The notes under the pieces: model-generated
Databases searched by the model: none
Told to the model about the DNA's origin: nothing
Seen by the model: only the letters and a program-made list of their open reading frames with translations
In this document: positions 4,313-41,646 of the stretch, piece by piece
Numbering within the stretch: the stretch's first letter is position 1
Layout: every line of letters begins with the position of its first letter
Position numbers and translations under genes: made by a program
NCBI RefSeq assembly: GCF_016592555.1
Contig: NZ_AP014546.1
Coordinates: forward strand, 62,001 to 126,000
DNA: 64,000 nt
Direction: 5' to 3'
Source: Neptunomonas japonica JAMM 1380
GTDB taxonomy: Bacteria; Pseudomonadota; Gammaproteobacteria; Pseudomonadales; Balneatricaceae

Positions 4313-4382
4313 AGCGGGCGCTAAAACAGAAGAGCGCTAGTGGCTAATCAGGTTTAGCGTTGCATTACACTACAACCTTACG

Positions 4383-4414
4383 ACCAAAACAGGTGATTTC
4401 TCGTTCCAAAGTAC
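4383..4414 (+). promoter_or_regulatory. 32-bp shared element upstream of pqqA
   Basis: Begins ACCAAAAC, has a T-rich core (ATTTCTCG) and ends TTCCAAAGTAC. It matches the element in front of the c550 gene (30899-30930) at 21 of 32 aligned positions and the one in front of the aldehyde dehydrogenase (37476-37507) at 19 of 32, without gaps. The -10 hexamer TATGAT (4440-4445) follows after 25 nt and no good -35 is present at the matching distance, as expected for an activator-dependent promoter. Role inferred; likely ligand is the ErbR/AgmR-type regulator. Confidence 0.6.
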
Positions 4415-4439
4415 CATATAGGTATCTATTGACCTCTCA

Positions 4440-4445
4440 TATGAT
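4440..4445 (+). promoter_or_regulatory. -10 hexamer of the pqqA promoter
   Basis: TATGAT, five of six bases of the consensus, 59 bp upstream of the pqqA start. The -35 position (about 4417-4422, ATATAG) is poor, which fits dependence on the adjacent 32-bp element. Confidence 0.5.
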
Positions 4446-4504: not shown

Positions 4505-4576
4505 ATGTGGACCAAACCAGCTTATCAAGATCTGCGTATCGGCTTCGAAGTAACAATGTACTTCGCAAACCGCTAA
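4505..4576 (+). CDS. pqqA: PqqA, precursor peptide of pyrroloquinoline quinone
   Basis: A 23-residue peptide, [20 protein letters not shown] followed by A-N-R, and the first gene of the PQQ operon. The conserved E-V-T-M-Y motif supplies Glu15 and Tyr19, which PqqE cross-links and from which PQQ is built. The start has AGAGG 8 nt upstream. Length and sequence are those of PqqA from Pseudomonas, with Gln8 in a position that is usually Thr. It is separated from pqqB by 134 bp containing a strong hairpin, so it is probably made in excess over the enzymes. Confidence 0.97.
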
Positions 4577-4710: not shown

Positions 4711-5643
4711 ATGAAAATACAGGTGTTAGGTTCTGCCGCCGGTGGCGGTTTCCCGCAATGGAACTGTAATTGTCGTAACTGTAAGGGATTTCGTGATGGC
4801 ACCTTAAATGCCAAAGCACGCACACAATCTTCTATTGCGGTGAGTATTGATGGTGTTGAGTGGATTTTGTTCAATACCTCGCCCGATATTCGCGAACAAT
4901 TAGCCGCGTTTGCTCCCATGCAACCCGCCAGAACTATCCGCGATACGGGTATTGCCGCTATTGTCTATATGGACAGTCAGATAGACCACACCACGGGCTT
5001 GTTGATGCTACGTGAAGGTTGTCCGCATCAGGTGTGGTGTACCGATATGGTGTATCAGGATCTGACATCAGGCTTTCCGGTGTTCTCTATGTTGAAACAC
5101 TGGAATGGTGGCATTGAGCGCCACACTATTCCTGTTAGTAGCGATAGCAATGTAGAGGGTAGTAGTTTTGTGGTGCCTCAAGTTCCGCAGCTAAAGCTAA
5201 CGGCTATTCCTTTGCGTAGCAGTGCACCACCATATTCGCCACACCGAAATGATCCTCACCCTGGGGATAACATTGGTATTCTCATAGAAGATACACGCAG
5301 CGGAAAAACCCTGTTCTATGCACCGGGTTTAGGAAAAATAGAACCTCATTTGAACCCTCTTATGTCTAATGCTGACTGTTTACTTATGGACGGCACCTTG
5401 TGGCGTGAAGACGAGATGATAACAGCCGGTGTTGGCGATAAGTTAGGTGTCACCATGGGGCATTTACCGCAATCCGGAAAGGGTGGCATGATTGAGTATC
5501 TAGATACGCTTACTAAGCCGCGCAAGATACTTATCCACATCAATAATACTAACCCGATTCTGGATGAAGACTCTGCCGAGCGCAAAGAAGTGATAGCGCA
5601 CGGTATTGAGATCTCATATGACGGGATGAGTATAGAATTGTAG
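4711..5643 (+). CDS. pqqB: PqqB, PQQ biosynthesis protein (metallo-beta-lactamase fold)
   Basis: 310-residue PqqB, usual length about 305. It belongs to the metallo-beta-lactamase superfamily and acts late in PQQ synthesis, hydroxylating the excised Glu-Tyr intermediate. Recognised from the N-terminus [20 protein letters not shown] with the clustered cysteines (C20, C22, C25) of a structural metal site, [17 protein letters not shown], the [12 protein letters not shown] loop and the [11 protein letters not shown] segment. ATG at 4711 gives the family N-terminus; its ribosome site is weak. Second gene of the operon, 8 bp before pqqC. Confidence 0.96.
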
Positions 5644-13067: not shown

Positions 13068-14192
13068 TTACCAGGTCAATACGGCACCCAATGCAACAGT
13101 GTCCGTTTCACGAGCGTCACTTTCGGTACGGTCGTATTCTGCGACTAGTTTGAGGTTGTTATTCACCGTATGGAACCAAGCAACGGCTGTATTTTGCGCA
13201 TCTAGATCATTAGTGGCTGCCGTTGTGCCACCTGAGTTTTCTCCATAAGATGCTACTAGGCGCTCATTACCCATTGTATAAGAAGCCTGCACTAAATAGC
13301 CGTCTACATCAGCACTGTCAGAGGTGACTAAATTGGCTAAACCCGCAGTACCAACACCGTTAGCACTAAAGCCAGAAGCAGTTATAGAGATATCCGATAC
13401 CTTAATATTGACACCATAAGCCACGCCGCTAGAGTCAACATCAGCTGAACCAGAGTCGGAGCTTTGTGCCATACCACTGACCCATGCTTTAAGGGGTACG
13501 TTCTCACTTAACTGTGTAGCAAAAGTTAGTTCTGCTTCTACTCGAGGTGCGCTTTCTTCTGAGCCTGCACTTGATTTACTTGGGTCCATTAAACCTATGG
13601 CCAGCTGGAAACCATTAGATGTAGGGGTACGGTAAGTAATCTGTGCATTAGGGAAAGGATATAAGTAACCTGTACCAATGTTACCAAATGATACGCCTTG
13701 TCCATCAACGAGACCATCAGTGCCTACTTGTCCGTAACCGAGTAATAGCTCATCACCCAGAATGTTGCTGCGGCCAAATAACGAGAAGTCTTTACCGATG
13801 AGTATTTGTCCCCACTCGCCGTCTACGGTGCCGTAAAATTGACGAACATCGATACCGGTAGAGGTAAGGTTGGTATTTGCATCATTCACAGAGACCCAAA
13901 AAGAAGAGCGGGCCCCCAGTTTAAGATCGTCTACCTGTTTTCCAAAGTTGAAACCAATATAGTTAGGTAAGAAACCCATTTTCACACGCGACTGGCTACG
14001 GTCTAGTGTGTTGTCGACATCATCAATTTGGCTATTCACGTAAAAAGTGTTGATGAGCCCATCGGTACTAAAAGTAGTTTCATCTTTATCATAAAGGTTA
14101 AGGCCTGCTGATGCTTGGCTGCAGAGGCCAACGGCCACCGCGCAGGTTAATAGCTTTAGATGTGACTTAAGGTGTGGCTTTTTATTTTTCAT
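13068..14192 (-). CDS. Outer-membrane porin
   Basis: 374 residues. A signal peptide ends at QASA before GLNLYDKDETTFS; the mature chain is rich in alternating beta-strand pattern and Gly/Ser/Thr/Asp, and the C-terminus VALGAVLTW ends in an aromatic residue recognised by the BAM complex. Size and the Asp-rich loops fit a trimeric 16-strand general or substrate-preferring porin of the Gram-negative type. Substrate unknown; because it is divergent from the alcohol-oxidation genes it could serve uptake of their substrates, but this is only positional. Confidence 0.85.
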   Translation of the reverse strand: MKNKKPHLKSHLKLLTCAVAVGLCSQASAGLNLYDKDETTFSTDGLINTFYVNSQIDDVDNTLDRSQSRVKMGFLPNYIGFNFGKQVDDLKLGARSSFWVSVNDANTNLTSTGIDVRQFYGTVDGEWGQILIGKDFSLFGRSNILGDELLLGYGQVGTDGLVDGQGVSFGNIGTGYLYPFPNAQITYRTPTSNGFQLAIGLMDPSKSSAGSEESAPRVEAELTFATQLSENVPLKAWVSGMAQSSDSGSADVDSSGVAYGVNIKVSDISITASGFSANGVGTAGLANLVTSDSADVDGYLVQASYTMGNERLVASYGENSGGTTAATNDLDAQNTAVAWFHTVNNNLKLVAEYDRTESDARETDTVALGAVLTW

Positions 14193-14533
14193 ATTGTCCC
14201 CGAAAGTGTGTGTTTAGCTTAGCGCTGTGACGCACATATCATCAGGTTTAGCAGGCAATTGGCGAATGCCTCTTTGGCACTGGATGGCTCGGCTCTTAGC
14301 CGTGTTGTGCTCATGTCTTAAAGCTTATAACTCTTTGTAATATAGTGGCTTAGTGCCAAGGTCTTGGGTCTAGGTGTAATACTGTGAGGGGGCTTTTAGT
14401 GGTAGTTTATTGGGCAGGTGCAGCATAGCCTTAGATACCGGCTTGATTGTAAAAACTGTGTAAACTTCATATCCTCTCTAATACGTCAGGTTCATTGTGG
14501 CGTCTAAGATAATAAGAAAGTTGAGTACGGGTC
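14193..14533. promoter_or_regulatory. Divergent intergenic region, porin and ercA
   Basis: 341 bp without a gene. It contains an 8-bp inverted pair, TTGGCACT (14274-14281) and AGTGCCAA (14352-14359), and a small hairpin CGGCT-CTT-AGCCG. I see no convincing copy of the 32-bp element here; AGTGGTAGTTTATT at 14398-14411 resembles only its middle. Both promoters must lie here. Confidence 0.5.
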
Positions 14534-17523: not shown

Positions 17524-18666
17524 ATGTCTGAACCAGCCGTGTCTTGTTTTTCCAATCAGAGCGACCCATTTTCTGCAGCAGCAGAGTTACGTCACCAACT
17601 ATGTTTTGACGATTTGAGCTTCGTGTTGTTCTTCTGCTCGACAGAATATGATCTAGAACAGCTAGCGGAGGCGATGAATTTAGCATTTCCTGATATAGCA
17701 TTAGCTGGGTGTACAACGGCAGGAGAGATTACTTCTGAAGGTTATGCTCAAGGGGCTATCAGTGCTATAGGTTTTAGCCGTGGTCACTTCACGGTAGAGA
17801 CTTGCCTTATTGAGGCGATGGATAATTTCACCCTAACTCAAGCACAGTCGGTGGTTGAGTCTTTTATTAATAAAGGCCGGAAAAAGCAGTTAGCACCGAT
17901 TAAAGGCAATAGCTTTGTATTAACACTCCTTGATGGCTTGTCGGTTCAGGAGGAGCAAGTATTAGCAACGTTGAGCTCTGCACTGGGAAACATCCCGCAT
18001 TTTGGTGGATCTGCAGGTGACGATGTTCATTTGGCTCACACACATGTTTTCGCCCACGGCGCTTTTCACACTGGGGCCGCCGTTGTACTGCTCTTTAATA
18101 CGGACTGTGAATTTGAAGTGTTTACCACGCATCATCTTGAATCACTCAGTGAAAAGTTGGTGGTGACGGCCGCAGAGCGTGATAACCGTCGAGTATTTGA
18201 GCTAAATGCTGAACCCGCAGCTCAAGAGTATGCCAACCTAATTGGTGTGCCCGTAGAAAAGTTAACCCCAGAAGTGTTCGCACTAAACCCTTTAGCGGTC
18301 AAAATTGGCGAAGTCTTTTATGTACGCTCCATTCAAAAGGTCAACTCGGACCTGAGCCTGACGTTTTACTGTGCTGTTGAGAATGGCATCGTACTCACGC
18401 GGATGCAGCGTGGCGATATGTTGAAAAACCTAACTACGCAACTGGAGCGTATCGAAGAGAAAGTCGGTTCACCACAGCTCATCATTGGTTGTGACTGTTT
18501 TTTACGTCGTCTTGAAATTGAGCATTTGGGTATATCTGCACAAGCTTCTAAGCTGTTACGTCAGCATAAAGTGGTTGGTTTTAATACCTATGGTGAACAC
18601 CTAGAAGGTATGCATATCAACCAGACATTTACCGGTGTTGTCATAGGGAGGCCTTGTGATGACTGA
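17524..18666 (+). CDS. nosP: FIST-domain sensor, NosP-like
   Basis: 380 residues made of a FIST_N domain (about 30-225; motifs LAGCTTAGEITSEGY and HFGGSAGDDVHLAHTHV) and a FIST_C domain (about 230-365; LAVKIGEVFYVRSIQKV, IGCDCFLRRLEIE). In P. aeruginosa the FIST protein PA1975 (NosP) binds heme and nitric oxide and inhibits the kinase NahK encoded next to it. Gene order is the same here: the stop overlaps the start of a NahK-like hybrid kinase by 11 bp. No signal peptide or membrane helix. FIST assignment is firm; heme/NO sensing is inferred from the neighbour. Confidence 0.78.
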   Translation: MSEPAVSCFSNQSDPFSAAAELRHQLCFDDLSFVLFFCSTEYDLEQLAEAMNLAFPDIALAGCTTAGEITSEGYAQGAISAIGFSRGHFTVETCLIEAMDNFTLTQAQSVVESFINKGRKKQLAPIKGNSFVLTLLDGLSVQEEQVLATLSSALGNIPHFGGSAGDDVHLAHTHVFAHGAFHTGAAVVLLFNTDCEFEVFTTHHLESLSEKLVVTAAERDNRRVFELNAEPAAQEYANLIGVPVEKLTPEVFALNPLAVKIGEVFYVRSIQKVNSDLSLTFYCAVENGIVLTRMQRGDMLKNLTTQLERIEEKVGSPQLIIGCDCFLRRLEIEHLGISAQASKLLRQHKVVGFNTYGEHLEGMHINQTFTGVVIGRPCDD

Positions 18667-21220
18667 GGTAGAGCAAGCACGCTTGGCTCAGTTAGAAAAG
18701 GAGAACTACAAACTCCAACGTATAAACCAAGCGCTGATTGAACGAGTGGAATCCAGTACTGCTCAAGGGGCCAACCCATATGCGGCGTTTGAGCACTCCG
18801 TTGTATTGGCCGATCAAGTACGTGAACGCACAGAAGCGTTAAACGAAGCATTATCAGAGCTTAAAATTAGCCACAGAGCTTTAAAAAATGCTAATCAAAT
18901 AGCCGATCTTGCCAACCAGCGCTTGGTCGATGCGATTGAAAGCATTTCTGATGCTTTTGTGCTGTTTGATCGTGAGCGGCGTATTGTTCTGTTTAATAGT
19001 CAGTTTCAGTCTGTTTGGAAAAATACGGGACAGGTTATTGCCACCGGAACCACTATTCAGGATGTGCGTCGTTTAGCAGACGAACATGGCCTAATAGCAG
19101 AAGAGTATGGTGAAACCGGCGATGGCAATAAAGTGTTTCGCTTGTCTTCTGGGCAATGGGTACAGATGAGTGAACGCTCCACTGCGGATGGCGGTATGGT
19201 TGTTTTGTATACTGATATCAGCCAATTGAAGGCATCCGAAACACAGCGTAGGGAAGCGGCCTTAGCGCAAAAATCTGAATTGCTGCAGCGTACTGTGGAT
19301 AACTTGTCACAAGGTGTGGCTTTGGTTAATGCCAGTGATCAGCTTGAGATTTGGAATGATCGTTTTTTGAAGCTAACTGGCGTTTCTCGCTCTGAAGCTG
19401 AATCTTATCCACCGTTTCGAGCGCTAAATGTTAGGCACTTTCATGATATGAAAGCCAAAGGCGGTCAATCGACTACCTCAAATGTGATGCACCATGATGA
19501 GCATATTATAGAAGTAAGGACTCACGCTATGCCTGATGGCTGGTATGTAAATACTTACACCGATATTACCGAGCGCTACCAATATGCAGAAACATTAAAA
19601 GAAAGTGAGCAATGGATACGTTTAATAACTGACCACGTACCTGCACTGATTGCATATATGGGTGATGATCTTTGTTATCGTTTTACCAATAAAGTATATG
19701 ATGAATGGTATGGCTGGGAGAGAGGGGCTTTAGCAGGAGAAAGTATCACTCAGGTGCATGGAGAGCAAAGCTTTCTCGAGTTACTGCCTTATATCAAACA
19801 AGCGCTTTCTGGCGAAAATGTTACCTTTGATATTGCTGAACGTAATGGTGCCGGTGAGCAGCGTCACATGCTGAAATCCTATGTGCCCAATATAGGTTCG
19901 GATGGTAAAACGGTCGGTTTCTTTGTCATGATTCGAGATATCACTGATCGTCGTAGAGTGGCTTTAGAGCTTGAGGCTGCTTACCAAAATCTTGAGCAGC
20001 GTGTCGATGAGCGTACGTCAGAGCTGACCGCAGTGAATGAGCACTTACTTTCTGAAATAGAAGAGCGAACACAAGTAGAAGCACGGCTACGTGAAGCAAA
20101 AAAAGATGCAGAACAGGCGAATTTATCTAAGACTAAGTTTTTGGCGGCCGTTAGCCATGACTTGTTACAACCATTAAATGCGGCGCGCCTATTTACCGGA
20201 GCTCTTGCCGAAAAGCAGCTAAGTGAAGCGACTCGTCCTCTGGTTAACTCTGTGTCGCATGCTCTGAGCGATGTTGAATCATTACTTGGTACATTGGTGG
20301 ATATCTCTAAGCTGGATGCCGGTGTTGTAACGCCGGATATCACAACATTTAGAGTGCGAGAGTTAATGGCGAATATCGCTAATGAATTTGGTCAATTTGC
20401 ACAGCAAGCAGGACTAAAAATGTCCTATGTTCCATCATCTGCGGTGATATCCACTGATTCACAATTGTTGGCACGTATTATTAGGAACTTTCTTTCAAAT
20501 GCCATTCGTTATACCTCTTCTGGCCGTATTTTGTTTGGCTGTCGGCGTAAGCAGCAGTCACTTGTTATTGAAGTGTGGGATACCGGTATGGGTATTCATG
20601 AGACGCAATTACAGGAGGTTTTTCAGGAGTTCAGGCGGCTTAACCCGCAAGACCAGGGGCAAGATAAAGGCCTGGGGTTGGGACTCGCTATTGTGGATAA
20701 GATTTCAAGAGTTTTGGGGCATGCTATTTCAGTTCAGTCTATCAAAGGCAAAGGCTCAGTTTTCTCTGTAGAGGTACCGTACGGTGAACTCGCGTTGTAT
20801 TCTGCCATGCCTGTGCTAGGTCATGAGATTGCTCAGGATTGCCTGCGAGGCGCACATATATGGGTGATAGATAATGACCTAGCAATCTGTCAGGGTATGC
20901 AAACGTTACTGGAAGGTTGGGGTTGTTGTGTGACAACTGCTTTATCGTCAGAACATTTGTTGGCTACGGTTGACCCTGCTAGTGATCGTGTTGACCTGCT
21001 GATTGCAGATTATCACTTGGATAATGGTAAGAATGGCGTTGATGCGGCAGGTTCGATCTCACAACGAATGGCAGGAGAGCTGTCAGTATTAATGATTACG
21101 GCTAATTACAATAAGGACTTGAAACAAGAGATTCGTGAACGGGGCTACATTCTGATGAACAAGCCCGTTAAGCCGCTAAAACTAAAAACGACGCTATTGC
21201 ACCTATTGAAAAATCGTTAG
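18656..21220 (+). CDS. nahK: Hybrid sensor histidine kinase NahK / ErcS'-like
   Basis: 854-residue cytoplasmic hybrid kinase. N-terminal coiled coil (about 1-90), three successive PAS-type domains (about 95-190, 205-305 and 315-430), a coiled coil, HisKA with H501 in [14 protein letters not shown], HATPase with [13 protein letters not shown], and a receiver with D785 in IADYHLDNG. The P. aeruginosa counterpart PA1976 is described both as ErcS' (ethanol oxidation) and NahK (NO-controlled, acting through a phosphotransfer protein on biofilm formation). Overlaps the FIST gene by 11 bp. Its stop overlaps by 4 bp the stop of the convergent response regulator. Confidence 0.82.
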
Positions 21221-21885
21221 CGTTTTAGGTATTCACTAAAATTGATATTACCTGCTGATAAAACCGCCTGAATACGATTGTGTACGTTCAGCTTGCGCAA
21301 GATTGCAGATACATGGGCTTTTACGGTTGTCTCTGCAATATTGAGATTATAGGCAATCTGTTTATTTGATTCACCCGTGGACATTCTTTCTAAGACGAGT
21401 AGCTGACGACGGGTAAGTGATGATAAAGCTTCAGGTGCAATGCGGTTGTCATCGTGACGTGGCGCACGGCGTGTTTCAGGTGAGTTGCTGCGAATAATAT
21501 CGGAAGGTAAATACACATTGCCTGCCAAAATTTGCTTCAACGCATCGGTCATCTGCTCGCGAGAAGATGACTTAGTAATAAAGCCTACAGCACCGTAAGT
21601 AATGGCTTGAAGTACGATCTGTTTATCTTCTTCTGCTGAAACAATCACGACAGGAATCGTTGGGGACTCGTTGCGTAAGGTAATAAGGCCATTCAAACCA
21701 TTCATACCGGGCATATTTAAGTCTAATAGAATAAGGTCTAAATCGTCATGATCTAGTGTGGTCTCAAGTGCGCTTTCTAGGGTTTGGGTTTCAAGTAGCT
21801 CACACTCAGGAAAACTGGTATGAATGACATTGCTAATCGCTTCCCTAAACAGAGGGTGGTCATCCGCAATCAGTATTTTATACAC
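21217..21885 (-). CDS. erbR: LuxR/NarL-type response regulator, ErbR/AgmR-like
   Basis: 222 residues: receiver domain (1-120) with ADDHPLF, phospho-acceptor Asp in [12 protein letters not shown] (about residue 56) and the lysine in GFITKSS, then a LuxR helix-turn-helix (about 155-215; [40 protein letters not shown]). Members named AgmR, ExaE or ErbR activate quinoprotein alcohol dehydrogenase and pqq promoters; the close paralogue ErdR controls acetate use, and sequence alone does not let me separate them. Context of ErcS/NahK-type kinases and PQQ genes favours ErbR/AgmR. It is the obvious candidate to bind the 32-bp element. Converges with the kinase gene. Confidence 0.75.
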
Positions 21886-22541: not shown

Positions 22542-22613
22542 GCAGCTGCACTCTTTCTAGCAGTCTGTATTACACCGCGCTACTGAGGGTGAGGTACATT
22601 CTGCATTGGAGTG

Positions 22614-22641
22614 AAAAAACCAGTACTAAAGTACTGGTTTT
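22614..22641 (-). terminator. Terminator after the LysE-family gene
   Basis: Perfect 11-bp inverted repeat AAAACCAGTAC (22616-22626) and GTACTGGTTTT (22631-22641) with a TAAA loop. On the minus strand the hairpin ends in a run of six T, 25 bp after the LysE-family stop codon. Confidence 0.8.
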
Positions 22642-30064: not shown

Positions 30065-30159
30065 GATGACTCATTCATATTTTTATTCGTAAAGTGGAAT
30101 ACCCAGCATAAGCAGGAAGCACAGAGGGGGGAATATGAAGAAAGTACAAAACTTTTAGT

Positions 30160-30191
30160 ACTGAAGTAGTATTTTGTTGTCAGGTGGGCGC
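30160..30191 (+). promoter_or_regulatory. Partial shared element between the ABC operon and the cupredoxin-like gene
   Basis: ACTGAAGTAGTATTTTG matches the first half of the 32-bp element in front of the aldehyde dehydrogenase at 14 of 16 positions; the second half (TTGTCAGGTGG) differs. It lies 50-80 bp before the cupredoxin-like start and about 100 bp before the divergent ABC operon, so it could serve both. GTACAAAACTTTTAGTAC just upstream (30144-30161) is a further dyad. Confidence 0.4.
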
Positions 30192-30753: not shown

Positions 30754-30898
30754 TATGTTGGTATCAAATGTCCCTCTCCAATACTCAAGCCCCGTTTGTT
30801 CTAGTTTCAATATTTACTTAAGTTACCTTTTGATAATTAATAAAAAACACTCAGCTACAAAGGTGCGTGTTGTCCGTGCATTGACGTTACAACCTAGT

Positions 30899-30930
30899 AC
30901 CAAGGAACTAGTTTTTGCGCGCCAAAGTAC
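30899..30930 (+). promoter_or_regulatory. 32-bp shared element upstream of the c550 operon
   Basis: Begins ACCAAGGAACTAG, has the core TTTTTGCGCG and ends CCAAAGTAC. Its final nine bases are identical to those of the pqqA element. GTACCAAGG at its left and CCAAAGTAC at its right form an imperfect dyad (7 of 9). The -10-like CATGAT (30956-30961) follows after 25 nt, and the start codon of the c550 gene is 103 bp downstream. Confidence 0.6.
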
Positions 30931-31033
30931 ACTTTTTGGATTGGCAGGCTTGCGTCATGATTTGATGAAGAGTGAAACACTGTCTACTTAAAATCGGCAG
31001 ATGTGTCGTGAAAACAAAAAAGTGGTGAATCTG

Positions 31034-31477
31034 ATGTTCCTGAAAAATAAACTATTACTATCGACGGCTGCACTAGTGTTTTGTGCGGGTCTTTCAACTC
31101 AAGCGATGGCACATGGAGATGTGACACCTCAAGGTGTTGATACACAGGGATTGGATCCACTTGGCGAAGAATGGCGTGAAGAGAACCCATACCGTCCTCC
31201 TTATGAAAAGAATGCACAGGCTATCAAGATTGGCTTCTCTGCCTATACGCAAAACTGCGCTCGTTGTCATGGTTTGGAAGGGATTTCTGGAGGTATCGCG
31301 CCTGATTTACGTATGCTTGAAGCCGGTCTTGAGGGTGATGAGTGGTATCAGTATCGTGTTGTCAACGGTGCGGTACGAGACGGTGCTGTTTACATGCCAA
31401 AAATGGCCGATTACCTGAGCCAGGAAGCGCTATGGGCGATCCGTACTTGGTTAGAGTCGGTGAGTGTTGATGAGTAA
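31034..31477 (+). CDS. pedF: Cytochrome c550 of the PQQ alcohol dehydrogenase (PedF/ExaB-like)
   Basis: 147 residues, signal peptide MFLKNKLLLSTAALVFCAGL...AMA, then one heme c site CARCH and a Met in VYMPKMADYL as the axial ligand. It takes electrons from the periplasmic PQQ dehydrogenase to the respiratory chain. The ATG at 31034 is preferred over 31001 because it gives a normal signal peptide and has GGTGA 6 nt upstream. It overlaps the next gene by 8 bp. The order c550, MxaJ-like, SoxYZ-like, metallohydrolase, PQQ dehydrogenase matches the ped cluster of P. putida. Confidence 0.92.
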   Translation: MFLKNKLLLSTAALVFCAGLSTQAMAHGDVTPQGVDTQGLDPLGEEWREENPYRPPYEKNAQAIKIGFSAYTQNCARCHGLEGISGGIAPDLRMLEAGLEGDEWYQYRVVNGAVRDGAVYMPKMADYLSQEALWAIRTWLESVSVDE

Positions 31478-34195: not shown

Positions 34196-34218
34196 GTCTC
34201 TTTGGAGCAGGTAGTAGT

Positions 34219-34250
34219 ACTAAGTAACGAGAAAAGTTGTTCTGGGGTGT
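34219..34250 (+). promoter_or_regulatory. Diverged copy of the shared element upstream of the PQQ dehydrogenase
   Basis: Placed as in the other operons (its end is 101 bp before the start codon). Read forward it begins ACTAAGTAACGAG and matches the pqqA element at 14 of 32 positions. Read on the opposite strand, CTTTTCTCGTTACTTAGTAC matches the right part of the pqqA element at 15 of 20 positions. A -10-like CACAAT (34275-34280) follows. Confidence 0.4.
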
Positions 34251-34351
34251 AATTGTTGGAATCTACCAAAACTTCACAATGAGAGACATGATTCGGGGAA
34301 GCTTTCCCGGCTCACCCCACAATAAAAAACGATTCCGTAAAGGAGCTAGTG

Positions 34352-37121: not shown

Positions 37122-37475
37122 GAAAAGATGATTCCATAAATATAATCAAAATTATTTTGATAAAAAAGCAAAAATTACCCTACTTATTTTATCCTTTTTT
37201 CAATAAAGGCACCTTAACTATTGAGCCCGCTTCCTTATTAGGAAATGTTTTTCGAGGTTTGAAAATATTCAGATAGAGGGATGAAAAGACTTTAAAGGTG
37301 GTTTTTTAGGGAAAAAAGAGAGCGCGATGATAAGTGACATAAAAATAAAACATGCGAAAAAAATAATAACTTTATTATTTATAAGTCTTTAATAGTTATA
37401 AGTATTTTAAAGTTTTTCTGGGTTTCTCTATATGATTTTACTGAGCTTCTGTAAGGCCCTTCTCTTATTATAAGC
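37122..37475. other. AT-rich gene-free stretch upstream of the aldehyde dehydrogenase
   Basis: Very AT-rich, with runs such as TTTATTATTTATAAG near 37371 and several poly-A tracts. No reading frame is supportable. Likely holds the LysR promoter and bent DNA for H-NS-like or activator binding. Confidence 0.4.
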
Positions 37476-37507
37476 ACTAAAGTAGTAGTTTTTCGCTTCC
37501 AAAGGGT
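37476..37507 (+). promoter_or_regulatory. 32-bp shared element upstream of the aldehyde dehydrogenase
   Basis: Begins ACTAAAGTAGTAG, core TTTTTCGC, ends TTCCAAAGG. It agrees with the c550 element at 20 of 32 positions and with the pqqA element at 19 of 32. The -10-like TAATAT (37534-37539) follows after 26 nt, and the start codon is 102 bp downstream. Confidence 0.6.
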
Positions 37508-37609
37508 GATACCTGACTTGGCTTCTGAATCGCTAATATCGAACTGTGATTAATTGAATGGCGCCTGCTGGTTGGGCAGGGCTGATATAACAAGAAAGAG
37601 GCCAATAAG

Positions 37610-39130
37610 ATGATTTATGCACAGCCAGGAGCTGAAGGCTCAGTTGTTACTTTTCAAGAGCGCTATGGTAACTACATCGGTGGCGAATGGGTTGCACCGG
37701 TTAATGGACAATATTTTAAAAACGTATCACCTGTAGATGGTGAGTCTTTTTGTGAAATCCCTCGCTCAACAGAAGCCGATATTAATTTAGCACTGGATGC
37801 AGCACATGCAGCCAAAGATGCATGGGCGGCAACCTCTGTTACAGCACGTTCAAATATCTTACTCAAAATTGCTGACAGAATTGAAGCTAACCTCGAAAGG
37901 CTGGCTGTAGCAGAAACATGGGATAACGGTAAAGCCGTTCGTGAAACCCTAAATGCTGACGTCCCTTTATGTGTTGATCACTTCCGTTACTACGCGGGTT
38001 GTATTCGTGCACAAGAAGGTTCTATCGGTGAAATTGACGGCAACACTGTTGCTTACCATTTCCATGAGCCGTTGGGGGTTGTTGGTCAGATCATTCCTTG
38101 GAACTTCCCTCTATTGATGGCTGCTTGGAAACTTGCTCCAGCACTTGTTGCAGGTAACTGTGTTGTACTGAAACCAGCAGAGCAGACGCCAGCATCAATT
38201 CTTGTGCTTATGGAAGTCATTGGTGATTTACTGCCAGCGGGTGTGCTGAATGTTGTCAATGGTTACGGTGCAGAAGCCGGTCAAGCACTGGCGACTAGCA
38301 AGCGTATTGCCAAAATTGCTTTCACTGGATCAACGCCAGTTGGTTCGCATATTTTGAAATGTGCAGCAGAAAATATTATTCCTTCAACAGTAGAGCTAGG
38401 GGGTAAGTCTCCGAATATCTACTTCGAAGATATCATGAACTATGAAGACGAGTTCATTAGTAAGTGCGTAGAAGGAACGGTACTCGCATTCTTTAATCAG
38501 GGTGAAGTATGTACTTGCCCTTCACGCTTGTTGGTTCAGGAATCGATTTACGACAAGTTCATCGAGATGGTCATTCAGCGTATTGGCCAGATTAAACGTG
38601 GTAACCCTCTTGATACTGAAGTTATGGTGGGTGCTCAGGCTTCACAAGAACAGTTTGATAAGATCTTGAGCTACTTCGAAATTGGTCGTGATGAAGGAGC
38701 AGAGGTATTGATAGGTGGCGGTGCTGAAAGCTTAAGTGATGGTTTAAATAACGGTTACTATATTCAGCCAACGTTACTGAAAGGTAACAATAGTATGCGT
38801 GTATTCCAGGAAGAAATTTTTGGTCCTGTCGTGTCTGTGACAACCTTTAAAGATGAAGCAGAAGCGTTGGAAATTGCTAACGATACTGAGTTTGGTTTGG
38901 GTGCAGGCTTATGGACACGTGATATGAATCGTTCATACCGCATGGGTCGTGGTATTCAAGCGGGTCGTGTGTGGACTAACTGTTATCACCATTATCCAGC
39001 ACATTCTGCATTCGGAGGTTACAAAAAATCGGGTGTTGGCCGTGAAACACATAAAATGATGTTGGACCACTATCAGCAGACCAAAAATATGTTGGTTAGC
39101 TACGATATTAATCCGATGGGCTTCTTCTAA
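37610..39130 (+). CDS. exaC: NAD-dependent aldehyde dehydrogenase (ExaC/PedI type)
   Basis: 506-residue cytoplasmic aldehyde dehydrogenase that oxidises the acetaldehyde or other aldehyde made by the quinoprotein enzyme. The general base Glu is in [11 protein letters not shown] (about residue 268), the nucleophile Cys in [11 protein letters not shown] (about residue 302), the NAD fold shows FTGSTPVG and the [20 protein letters not shown] segment. The length and the C-terminus [14 protein letters not shown] are typical of ExaC/AldB enzymes. AAAGAGG 8-9 nt before the ATG. Preceded by the 32-bp element, followed by a terminator, so it is a single-gene unit. Confidence 0.92.
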
Positions 39131-39187: not shown

Positions 39188-41506
39188 CTATGGTGTTAAG
39201 TCCATTCCTTTTTTTACGGACACTTTATCTCTATCTGCTTGCTTAGATTGGTAAAGGGCTTGGTCGACGTTATAGAGGGCTTCTTTAATCGTGATAGATG
39301 GTAAGAAGTTTGAAACCCCTGCGCTGGCGGTCATTTTTCCAATATGTTTGTAGGAATGTTCGCGTATTTTTGCCAGTAATTTTTCTGCTAGGTTTTTGCC
39401 TTCTTCAACATCGATATGAGGGCAGACAATAATAAACTCTTCTCCTCCCCATCGGCCGACATAATCGGTGCTACGAACGTTTTTTTGTAGAACGCTAGCA
39501 AATTCAACTAGGACGGCATCACCCATGGCATGTCCGTAGGTGTCGTTTACACGCTTAAAGAAATCTATATCGAGCAAGATGATAGAGGCATTAACGCTAT
39601 AACGGTCAACCTCTGCTTTTTGTTCGATTAAAACATCATCCATTTTTACGCGGTTATAAAGCCCCGTTAACTTGTCGGTAACGGATAACTTTTTAAGGCG
39701 TTGATTAAGCCTTCTTAACTGATGGTAGTGATAGATAAAAGCGAGTGATAATAGACATATGCCAATGATAATCTTCCACATGAGAGAATAATCAAAGGAG
39801 ACTTCTTGCTTAATAGGTACCCATTTATTGAATGTGGACTGTTTAAATTCTGGATCAATATTGTATATAAGTTTTTGAAATACCTCCTGCAGCAGAGGTT
39901 CATCATTTCGTGTGGCTATTGATAAGTTGATATCATCTTCTAGCCTAGATGATATTTTTAGGCTGCCAGTAAAGTCTTTCTGTATGGCTGTCGCAATCGT
40001 CATGAGGTTATCAATGTAGCCAAAGAGCTGGCCATTCTCTACTTGTTGTAACCCGTCATTTATAGATTTAACCTCTATAATATTGATCCCTGGTACTGCT
40101 TTACGCAGACTTTCTTCTACGGAATAGCCCTTTACCACGCCAATCTTTTTATCTTTGATGTCAGCAATGTCACTGATAAAAAACTTATCGGTGGTGGTTG
40201 CCATTACGACAGGAAAGGTCGTGTAGGATGTCGTGAAATCCATATAGAGTGAGCGTTCTGGTGTATGTGATGCCATTGAAAAAATATCACACTGCCTATT
40301 TTTTGCTTTTTTTATAGACTCTTGCCAGCTTTGAGTCGGTATCAAATGAATTGGTATAGGTAGTTGTTTAGCTAAGGAAGAAATTATATCGGCGGCAATG
40401 CCAACATGTTTGCCGTTTTGAATGCTTTCAAATGGCATCCAATCGGGATCTACACAAAGGTTAATGAATTTTTTATTTTGTAAGTACAGTTGCTGCTTTT
40501 CGTTAAAGATCACATTGTGGTTGTATGTTAATAGTAGGTCGTCAAATAGAAAGGTACCCAGTTCTTGAGTGGCGGGTAATAGGCCGCTGTGGTGTAACTG
40601 TTTTACTGTTCTAAGGCTTAAATCTGTATTAATTGCACCAATTTCAAAAAAATCTAATAGCATCATTTTTTTTGTGACGGCCACTTCGTAAGCAAGTGCG
40701 TCGATGGATTTTTTCTGGGAGTACTTTTTGTAGATGGTGGCAATAGTTTCTCGTGGATGCTTTAGGGCGTACGTCCAGCCTCGATTTGATGCATCGATAA
40801 ATTTTCGCGTTCTTTCTGGGTGTTGCAATGCTTCAGTTTGTGATGTGAATAGATTAACAGCACTCATTAAGAAGCCGTAATCGGCAGGGTCAATAATATT
40901 GTATTCAATATTTTGTTTGTCGAGTTCAAATAACTGATTGGTTCTAAAAGCACTCATTGCATCTACTTCATGGTTAATAAAGTCTTCGATATTAAAAGAG
41001 TGCTCAATTAATTTTGAGTTGTTTTTGGTTATAAAAAAGTGGTCTAACATCAGTGCTAATGAACTGTATTTAAGTTCATCTTTGGTGCCCATAATAGTTT
41101 TACCTATTAGGTCCTTAGGGGTTTTTATCTCTTTAGAAGTGACAAATATAAGTGGCGACTGTTGGTAATAAGTCGCTAATAAAATGATGGGTTGTAGTTC
41201 TCCTTCGTGGATAATGACACTGGAGTTATGAATACCGTAATTATTTTCTTGAGAAAGCACTTTTTCAACGGTATCAAAGCCTGCTTGGTATTCTAGTAGC
41301 TCTACATCTAACCCTGCTTCTTGATAAAAACCTTTCTCCTTTGCCATGATGAAACCAGCAAACTCAAATTGAAATTTCCAGTCTAGCTGTAAAGAAATTT
41401 TTTCCAGTGCAAGTGCTTTAGTACTCATGATCAGCATTACAAAAAGAGTAATAAGAGGGAGTAAGTAAAGGCGATGTTTAATGTCTAGTAAATGCTGAGT
41501 TCGCAT
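39188..41506 (-). CDS. Diguanylate cyclase with two periplasmic binding-protein domains
   Basis: 772 residues. N-terminal signal/anchor (about 14-33), an NMT1/THI5 (SsuA-like) binding domain (about 36-270; LQLDWKFQFEFAGFIMAKEKG), a second SBP_bac_3-type domain (about 345-565; INLCVDPDWMPFESIQNGKH), a membrane helix (about 578-597) and a GGDEF domain. The active-site loop is GGEEF (687-691), and RSTD five residues before it is an RxxD inhibitory site, so it should be an active, product-inhibited cyclase. The two extracytoplasmic domains imply control by a small periplasmic ligand, pyrimidine-like or amino-acid-like. Monocistronic. Confidence 0.87.
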   Translation of the reverse strand: MRTQHLLDIKHRLYLLPLITLFVMLIMSTKALALEKISLQLDWKFQFEFAGFIMAKEKGFYQEAGLDVELLEYQAGFDTVEKVLSQENNYGIHNSSVIIHEGELQPIILLATYYQQSPLIFVTSKEIKTPKDLIGKTIMGTKDELKYSSLALMLDHFFITKNNSKLIEHSFNIEDFINHEVDAMSAFRTNQLFELDKQNIEYNIIDPADYGFLMSAVNLFTSQTEALQHPERTRKFIDASNRGWTYALKHPRETIATIYKKYSQKKSIDALAYEVAVTKKMMLLDFFEIGAINTDLSLRTVKQLHHSGLLPATQELGTFLFDDLLLTYNHNVIFNEKQQLYLQNKKFINLCVDPDWMPFESIQNGKHVGIAADIISSLAKQLPIPIHLIPTQSWQESIKKAKNRQCDIFSMASHTPERSLYMDFTTSYTTFPVVMATTTDKFFISDIADIKDKKIGVVKGYSVEESLRKAVPGINIIEVKSINDGLQQVENGQLFGYIDNLMTIATAIQKDFTGSLKISSRLEDDINLSIATRNDEPLLQEVFQKLIYNIDPEFKQSTFNKWVPIKQEVSFDYSLMWKIIIGICLLSLAFIYHYHQLRRLNQRLKKLSVTDKLTGLYNRVKMDDVLIEQKAEVDRYSVNASIILLDIDFFKRVNDTYGHAMGDAVLVEFASVLQKNVRSTDYVGRWGGEEFIIVCPHIDVEEGKNLAEKLLAKIREHSYKHIGKMTASAGVSNFLPSITIKEALYNVDQALYQSKQADRDKVSVKKGMDLTP

Positions 41507-41646
41507 TGATAATCATATCCCTATGTTATTTACCATGCGGCTTCCTAACAGAGCAGAAAGAAAACGGCTTATGAAGTGTAAGCTAATTTAATATTAGCAC
41601 AGGATCGATTTCACCGTTTTTAAATACGAAGAAGACTATAGTCATA

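Follow-up and report, generated by a model that had tools for sequence, protein, structure and literature searches.

The ped/exa locus of Neptunomonas japonica

The window, by which we mean the whole 64-kb stretch of DNA analysed here, corresponds to G000:C1:62001-126000 of a single-contig genome of 4,095,481 bp, and its cytochrome PedF has its closest named relative in Neptunomonas japonica (99% identity). The window houses a ped/exa cluster, which extends from pqqA and pqqB onward to a PQQ-dependent alcohol dehydrogenase (PQQ-ADH) gene and exaC. The pathway of PQQ-dependent alcohol oxidation is used in the synthetic biology of Pseudomonas.

The pqqA coding sequence (4505–4576, plus strand) lies upstream of pqqB (TIGR02108; window 4714–5640, corresponding to G000:C1:66714–67640). 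Cytochrome c-550 is encoded by pedF (TIGR04494; 31034–31477, plus strand). The start at 31034, implied by a preliminary description of this DNA, falls downstream of the longest-ORF start at 31001 and gives the better fit to a signal peptide. SoxYZ-like and SoxH-like genes appear in the gene list between pedF and the pair formed by the PQQ-ADH gene (TIGR03075; 34349–36142, plus strand) and exaC, the acetaldehyde dehydrogenase gene (NF050026, above cut-off; 37610–39130, plus strand). The ped genes pedC-B-A2-A1 occupy the minus strand, with pedA1 (TIGR03863; 28844–30064) leading pedA1-A2-B-C. Also on the minus strand, a PQQ_CXXCW rhodanese-like gene (TIGR03865; 21945–22541) leads a pair with the gene for the ErbR/AgmR response regulator (21217–21885), which carries Response_reg and GerE HTH domains and is the ligand proposed below. 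The cluster further encodes an Fe-ADH (ErcA-like), a hybrid kinase, NosP and a NahK/ErcS-family kinase; NosP and the NahK-family kinase, a nitric-oxide sensing pair (17524–21220), directly adjoin erbR.

A shared element upstream of pqqA, pedF and exaC

The preliminary description had aligned a 32-mer upstream of pqqA, c550 and exaC. Its sequences and coordinates were correct on recomputation, with 21 (pqqA/c550), 20 (c550/exaC) and 19 (pqqA/exaC) identical positions of 32. The -10-like hexamers also lie at the distances given, namely TATGAT (4440–4445), CATGAT (30956–30961) and TAATAT (37534–37539), all on the plus strand and 25, 25 and 26 nt past the respective 32-mers.

We compared these similarities with those expected by chance. 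When the three 300-bp upstream regions were compared, the best three-way match of 32-mers gave 61 summed identities, a value reached by 0 of 60 dinucleotide shuffles (mean 52.0, s.d. 1.8, maximum 59). With leave-one-out matrices the held-out site ranked third, third and fourth in the 64-kb window on both strands; ranks 1 and 2 were taken by the two training sites, and the held-out site was thus the first or second among new matches. A search of the whole genome (4,095,481 bp) with the pattern ACYAA-N9-TTT-N6-CCAAAG returned three exact matches, which are the three sites themselves, and seven matches with one mismatch. At up to two mismatches the genome showed no excess for this pattern (95 matches versus 116 for the reversed-pattern control). 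The 30 of these 95 matches that had a locus were scored by a combined model, and the sole non-site match above 10, at G000:C1:364975 (15.5), was rejected because of its position within an open reading frame that spans at least 968 aa. We claim sites for the cluster only, the combined matrix having been applied to the window, the reversed window and these 30 located genome matches.

The element is a pair of boxes followed by a predicted -10

The 32-mer is part of a real shared site, the true start of which is 4 bp earlier. The element is about 39 bp long and comprises two NarL-type boxes 22 bp apart, with the predicted -10 about 61 bp from the element start. Before pqqA the distal ErbR-type box, TACGACCAAAACAGGTG, occupies 4379–4395 and the proximal box, TCGTTCCAAAGTACCAT, 4401–4417 (plus strand), with the predicted -10 at offset 61 from the distal box start; related pqq promoters occur in other genomes. 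Before pedF, the distal box TAGTACCAAGGAACTAG (30895–30911, plus strand) is the top match of the window and is followed by the proximal box GCGCGCCAAAGTACACT (30917–30933, plus strand), again with the -10 at offset 61. Before exaC, the distal box AAGCACTAAAGTAGTAG (37472–37488, plus strand) is weak in cross-genus models (5.4 and 7.3), the proximal box CGCTTCCAAAGGGTGAT (37494–37510, plus strand) scores 12.8, and the -10 is at offset 62.

The distal box has the consensus TACTACC-AA-GGGAGTA, a 16-bp imperfect palindrome in a 7-2-7 register with its axis at 8.5 (r 0.61 over 8 pairs, against 0.36 at the next-best axis), and thus shows the inverted arms of ~7 bp around 2 bp that characterise NarL/FixJ-type operators. 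Symmetry in the proximal box is faint, with r 0.35 at the expected axis against 0.32 at another. Aligned c550 promoters read TACTACCAAGGgAcTAg at the distal box and then, 22 bp downstream, CCAAAGcAg.AT; an ErbR logo would be expected to resemble TACTACCAAGGGAGTA.

Of 70 distinct c550 promoters, two lack a CCAAAG-like half and were left aside; in all of the other 68, the boxes were 22 bp apart when a range of 15–28 bp was searched. Within a range of 22–45 bases after CCAAAG, the best -10 started at 34 (47 promoters) or 35 (19), and elsewhere in 2 of the 68. In a range-free -10 profile, offset 61 ranked first for PQQ-ADH, exaC and pedA1 (the last being three sequences only); with c550 and rhodanese-erbR the leading offset was 33, within the proximal box, and 61 came second. 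If the -10 is taken as -12 to -7, the box centres would fall at about -65.5 and -43.5 from the predicted start, with the proximal box at about -51 to -36.

The proximal half differs between gene classes. Only 5 of 29 exaC promoters have a CCAAAG-like proximal half, all five at 22 bp. The PQQ-ADH promoters keep the distal box, have a different proximal half and possess a better promoter, TTGTTG-17-AAGAAT. In the window, the distal box TAGTACTAAGTAACGAG lies at 34215–34231 (plus strand), the proximal place at 34237–34253 fails the proximal model and the predicted -35 TTGTTG is at 34253–34258 (plus strand).

Conservation in related genomes

PedF was found above cut-off in 20 of the 194 genomes of the order, counting our own, and the PqqB, ExaC, ErbR and PQQ-ADH loci were gathered from these 20. 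A matrix built solely from the three window sites was applied unchanged, with a threshold of >9. It matched upstream of c550 in 15 of 19 other genomes (in-gene control 0/19, reversed 0/19), upstream of pqq in 13 of 18 (one in each control) and upstream of exaC in 8 of 25, including second copies (none in either control). Three of the 15 c550 matches (G019, G192 and G123) sit 240–265 bp upstream, farther than the others. There was no excess of the full 32-bp form before PQQ-ADH, where 3 of 29 exceeded 9, equal to the reversed control (3/29; in-gene 0), or directly upstream of erbR (2/18; reversed 2, in-gene 1), where the box instead precedes the rhodanese gene.

Among 80 named loci, three of which were dropped for upstream sequence that was too short, the same matrix exceeded 9 in 72 of 77 c550 upstream regions (reversed 4/77, in-gene 0/77). 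These matches span Neptunomonas, Amphritea, Marinobacterium, Pontibacterium, Motiliproteus and many Pseudomonas species. Seven of the 72 (L211, L214, L215, L218, L226, L233 and L244), in which the match was out of register or untrusted, were excluded from the 17-bp model described below. Like elements precede c550, exaC, pqqA, rhodanese-erbR and, in the form of the distal box, PQQ-ADH in other Pseudomonadales.

Target promoters

The preliminary description held for its three promoters and had overlooked the two-box structure, the further promoters and the resemblance to ACTU, the motif bound by ErdR, which is considered below. A model trained without Neptunomonas gave as the top five matches of the window c550 (39.7), exaC (20.0), pqqA (17.3), rhodanese-erbR (14.9) and PQQ-ADH (14.8); the next match scored 8.8 and the maximum in the reversed window was 8.3. 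The 17-bp model, built from 30 distinct c550 sites, was run over the 80 named loci and yielded 224 matches above 14, comprising 75 at pedF (partly by construction), 70 at PQQ-ADH, 31 at exaC, 3 at pedA1 and 45 others. In the last group, 23 lie no more than 260 bp from the start of pedA1 and 11 precede the rhodanese gene, which leaves 11 unassigned.

In the loci inspected, the 23 boxes near pedA1 face a 148-aa gene that has a sensor kinase gene behind it. From the gene order this operon is probably eraSR, and boxes are thus located before the genes reported to be controlled by ErbR, namely c550, pqq and, by this assignment, the kinase operon. At L221:943-2728 and similar Pseudomonas loci, the box is single and strong, with a putative -10 at offset 39 and a predicted centre of -43.5. 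The 148-aa gene behind this single-box promoter has no NCBIfam match.

Before rhodanese-erbR, the distal box CAGTACTTTAGTACTGG (22620–22636, minus strand) and the proximal box TCACTCCAATGCAGAAT (22598–22614, minus strand) were located, with similar boxes at the same place in G177 and G037. This box suggests that erbR may be autoregulated. At 22601–22641 the erbR-operon box forms a perfect hairpin followed by a T run, and may double as the terminator of a LysE-type gene; the Pseudomonas copies inspected carry no comparable T run.

Two genes are weaker candidate targets. The first is pedA1, with a candidate distal box TACTACTTCAGTACTAA (30155–30171, minus strand) and a -10-like TATGCT at offset 61. 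This box is outside the top matches of the Neptunomonas-free model, and its geometry is common to three named pedA1 promoters. At 30133–30171 (minus strand), the distal box of the pedA1 promoters is centred differently and the proximal half-site is seemingly inverted (GTACTTT). The second is a porin-like gene (13068–14192, minus strand) without a Pfam match, named from its positional likeness to PP_2662/PA1974. It is preceded by a proximal-type box, CAGTGCCAAAGAGGCAT (14266–14282, minus strand), which scores 8.8 in total, has a weak distal half and resembles a proximal box in G177.

Comparison with known systems

Work on AgmR/ErbR as an activator of alcohol oxidation by the PQQ-dependent route goes back to 1991 (references in PMC12997753). 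In experiments by others, both the ped and the pqq operon are activated by AgmR (PMC12997753), and ErbR is described as taking part in the regulation of EraSR, c550 and PQQ synthesis (PMC8913705). The present element shares with this Pseudomonas regulon the regulator and the target operons; the covered text of both papers gives no operator consensus, and the present element is a candidate for one. ErbR/AgmR is not mentioned in the main text of PMC8041468 and PMC13086498, and the covered text of PMC9023270 uses an ErbR regulon list and gives no site. The motif of EmaR from Acinetobacter, as given in the covered part of PMC9603970, differs from the present element. No ErbR operator consensus was found in the literature searched, which comprised papers rather than their supplements. 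Priority for an ErbR operator cannot be claimed.

A 2021 DAP-seq study of P. aeruginosa response regulators in Nucleic Acids Research may contain an ErbR logo. NarL binds pairs of heptamers (TACYYMT) in a 7-2-7 arrangement. The present site likewise has a 7-2-7 inverted repeat of TAC-headed heptamers, but differs in sequence and in its fixed tandem pair at two helical turns.

The closest published operator in the literature covered is ACTU, the motif recognised by ErdR/CrbR (Sepulveda and Lupas 2017, PMC5715377). As far as that paper was covered, ACTU resembles the present site in being a 17-bp imperfect inverted repeat in a 7-2-7 register with an AA centre and in belonging to a paralogous NarL-type regulator; by prediction, the present site would also share its location immediately 5' of the -35. 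It differs in that the right arm and inner bases read TAC..GGGAGTA in the present site and GAC..GTC in ACTU, and in that the present site usually consists of two boxes 22 bp apart and serves alcohol/PQQ genes, whereas ACTU serves acs/actP.

Co-occurrence of the box with ErbR

When the best 15 first-pass candidates per genome were scored, ErbR was found in 26 of 194 genomes (E ≤ 1e-60); ExaC was found in 69 of 194 (E ≤ 1e-240). We scored the 300 bp upstream of exaC (shorter at a contig end) with the 17-bp model, taking the best copy per genome and excluding our own genome. A box above 10 was present in 19 of 25 genomes with ErbR versus 3 of 43 without (Fisher 5.6e-9), while the reversed control gave two and none, respectively. 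Above 12, the counts were 14/25 and 3/43 (1.3e-5). Six of the 25 ErbR-bearing genomes scored below 10, as does our own exaC distal box (5.4).

The three exceptions without ErbR are G130 and G155, in which a 50%-identity ErbR-like gene just under the E-value limit is divergent from and adjoins exaC, and G052, a 75%-complete assembly. G176 and G036 belong to the family that includes G130 and G155, but show only a 44–45% paralog and no box. In genus g24, the ExaC-bearing G146 has no ErbR match and no box (-2.5), and four of the five ErbR-bearing genomes score 23–26 at exaC, the fifth, G019, scoring 2.4. The co-occurrence is partly confounded by descent.

Identity of the regulator

The preliminary description proposed that one activator binds all three promoters immediately 5' of the -35, with ErbR/AgmR as the most likely ligand. 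This reading is favoured by the comparative data, namely like elements before the same genes in other Pseudomonadales, a box before exaC that tracks the ErbR gene, and no clear EraR ortholog in this genome (best match 34% identical). We consider it very probable, judging from these sequence comparisons, that this element serves ErbR (AgmR, PedR1), a LuxR/NarL-type response regulator, as its operator.

The site could instead belong to ErdR/CrbR, a paralogous regulator that controls acetate use; the element shares with its ACTU motif the 7-2-7 register and, by prediction, the position. The distal matrix correlates best with the seven ACTU sequences at the exact register (r 0.52 at offset 0, next 0.25), both have their palindrome axis at 8.5, and ACTU lies at -52 to -36 of acs in the covered text of PMC5715377. 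The C-terminal helix of ErbR, its putative recognition helix, and that of a 45%-identical ErdR-like paralog are nearly the same. However, the ACTU arms GAC...GTC are not conserved in the present elements, and ExaC-bearing genomes with a 43–45%-identical paralog and no ErbR score -3.5 (G176), -4.7 (G036) and 8.6 (G097) at exaC. The covered part of PMC12997753 also reports that ethanol use by P. putida is unaffected by erdR deletion, and we regard assignment to ErdR as improbable. An ACTU matrix (seven sequences, Table 4 of PMC5715377) was tried and rejected as a description of the three elements, which it misses (at most 2.0–3.0), its best window score of 14.0 being elsewhere. This top ErdR-type match, TATGACTATAGTCTTCT at 41630 (minus strand), lies ~110 bp upstream of the minus-strand ORF 39188–41506.

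Slightly less probable still is that EraR/PedR2 binds the distal box of the PQQ-ADH promoters, or all of the boxes. EraSR drives exaA in P. aeruginosa, and the ADH promoters have a distinct proximal half. Yet with an EraR-like query (L213:6296-6892, named EraR by its place after a kinase) our genome has no clear ortholog, the best match being 34% identical (101 bits), and the ADH box is nonetheless present; nor does the window contain an ORF of at least 150 aa between pedA1 and pedF. Chance similarity of T-rich intergenic DNA, for which one might cite that three sites are few and that one-mismatch matches occur elsewhere, one (G000:C1:364975) in a coding region, is hardly credible against the conservation at the same genes across genera, the shuffles, the Neptunomonas-free model and the co-occurrence with ErbR.

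A model for ErbR-dependent promoters

Returning to ErbR, the paired site before alcohol-oxidation genes is most likely the place at which this regulator would bind to switch the pathway on. In the model that we infer, which adds binding, dimers, transcription starts, activation, phosphorylation and autoregulation to the computed element, its spacing, conservation, target genes and erbR co-occurrence, each 7-2-7 box would take one ErbR dimer. In the standard promoter, a strong distal box precedes by 22 bp, or two helical turns, a weaker proximal box whose CCAAAG half is strong. Should the predicted -10 be correct, the centres would lie near -65.5 and -43.5, so that the proximal dimer would abut the poor -35 and the distal dimer would support it from the same face of the DNA. 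Phosphorylated ErbR would bind both boxes and recruit sigma-70 polymerase to pqqA, c550, exaC, PQQ-ADH and its own rhodanese-erbR operon.

We see about an even prospect that a stricter scheme holds over several Pseudomonadales families. ErbR promoters would then follow a fixed grammar, either a strong palindrome at -65.5 with a weak half-site at -43.5 or, for the kinase operon beside pedA1, a single strong palindrome at -43.5; the proximal half would vary by gene class and set the output, and a few arm bases would separate ErbR from ErdR, leaving alcohol and acetate oxidation under sister codes. Both the nearly identical C-terminal helix and the coincident box register fit this picture of sister regulators. 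With a two-box site defined, regulons can be predicted across genomes and reporters designed for laboratory strains, and one can test directly how the paralogous response regulators ErbR and ErdR separate their targets.

Finally, we noted some compact variants. An ErbR-like regulator gene (50–54% identity) is divergent from an adjoining exaC at G155:C33:187866-190169, G130:C21:1866-4181 and G103:C8:307740-310136, and in G155 and G130 these minimal units have the box between the two genes. In G156 (L260) and G074 (L266), which combine ErbR and ExaC with no PedF above its cut-off, exaC is preceded by a perfect 7-2-7 palindrome, CAGTACT-AA-AGTACTG.
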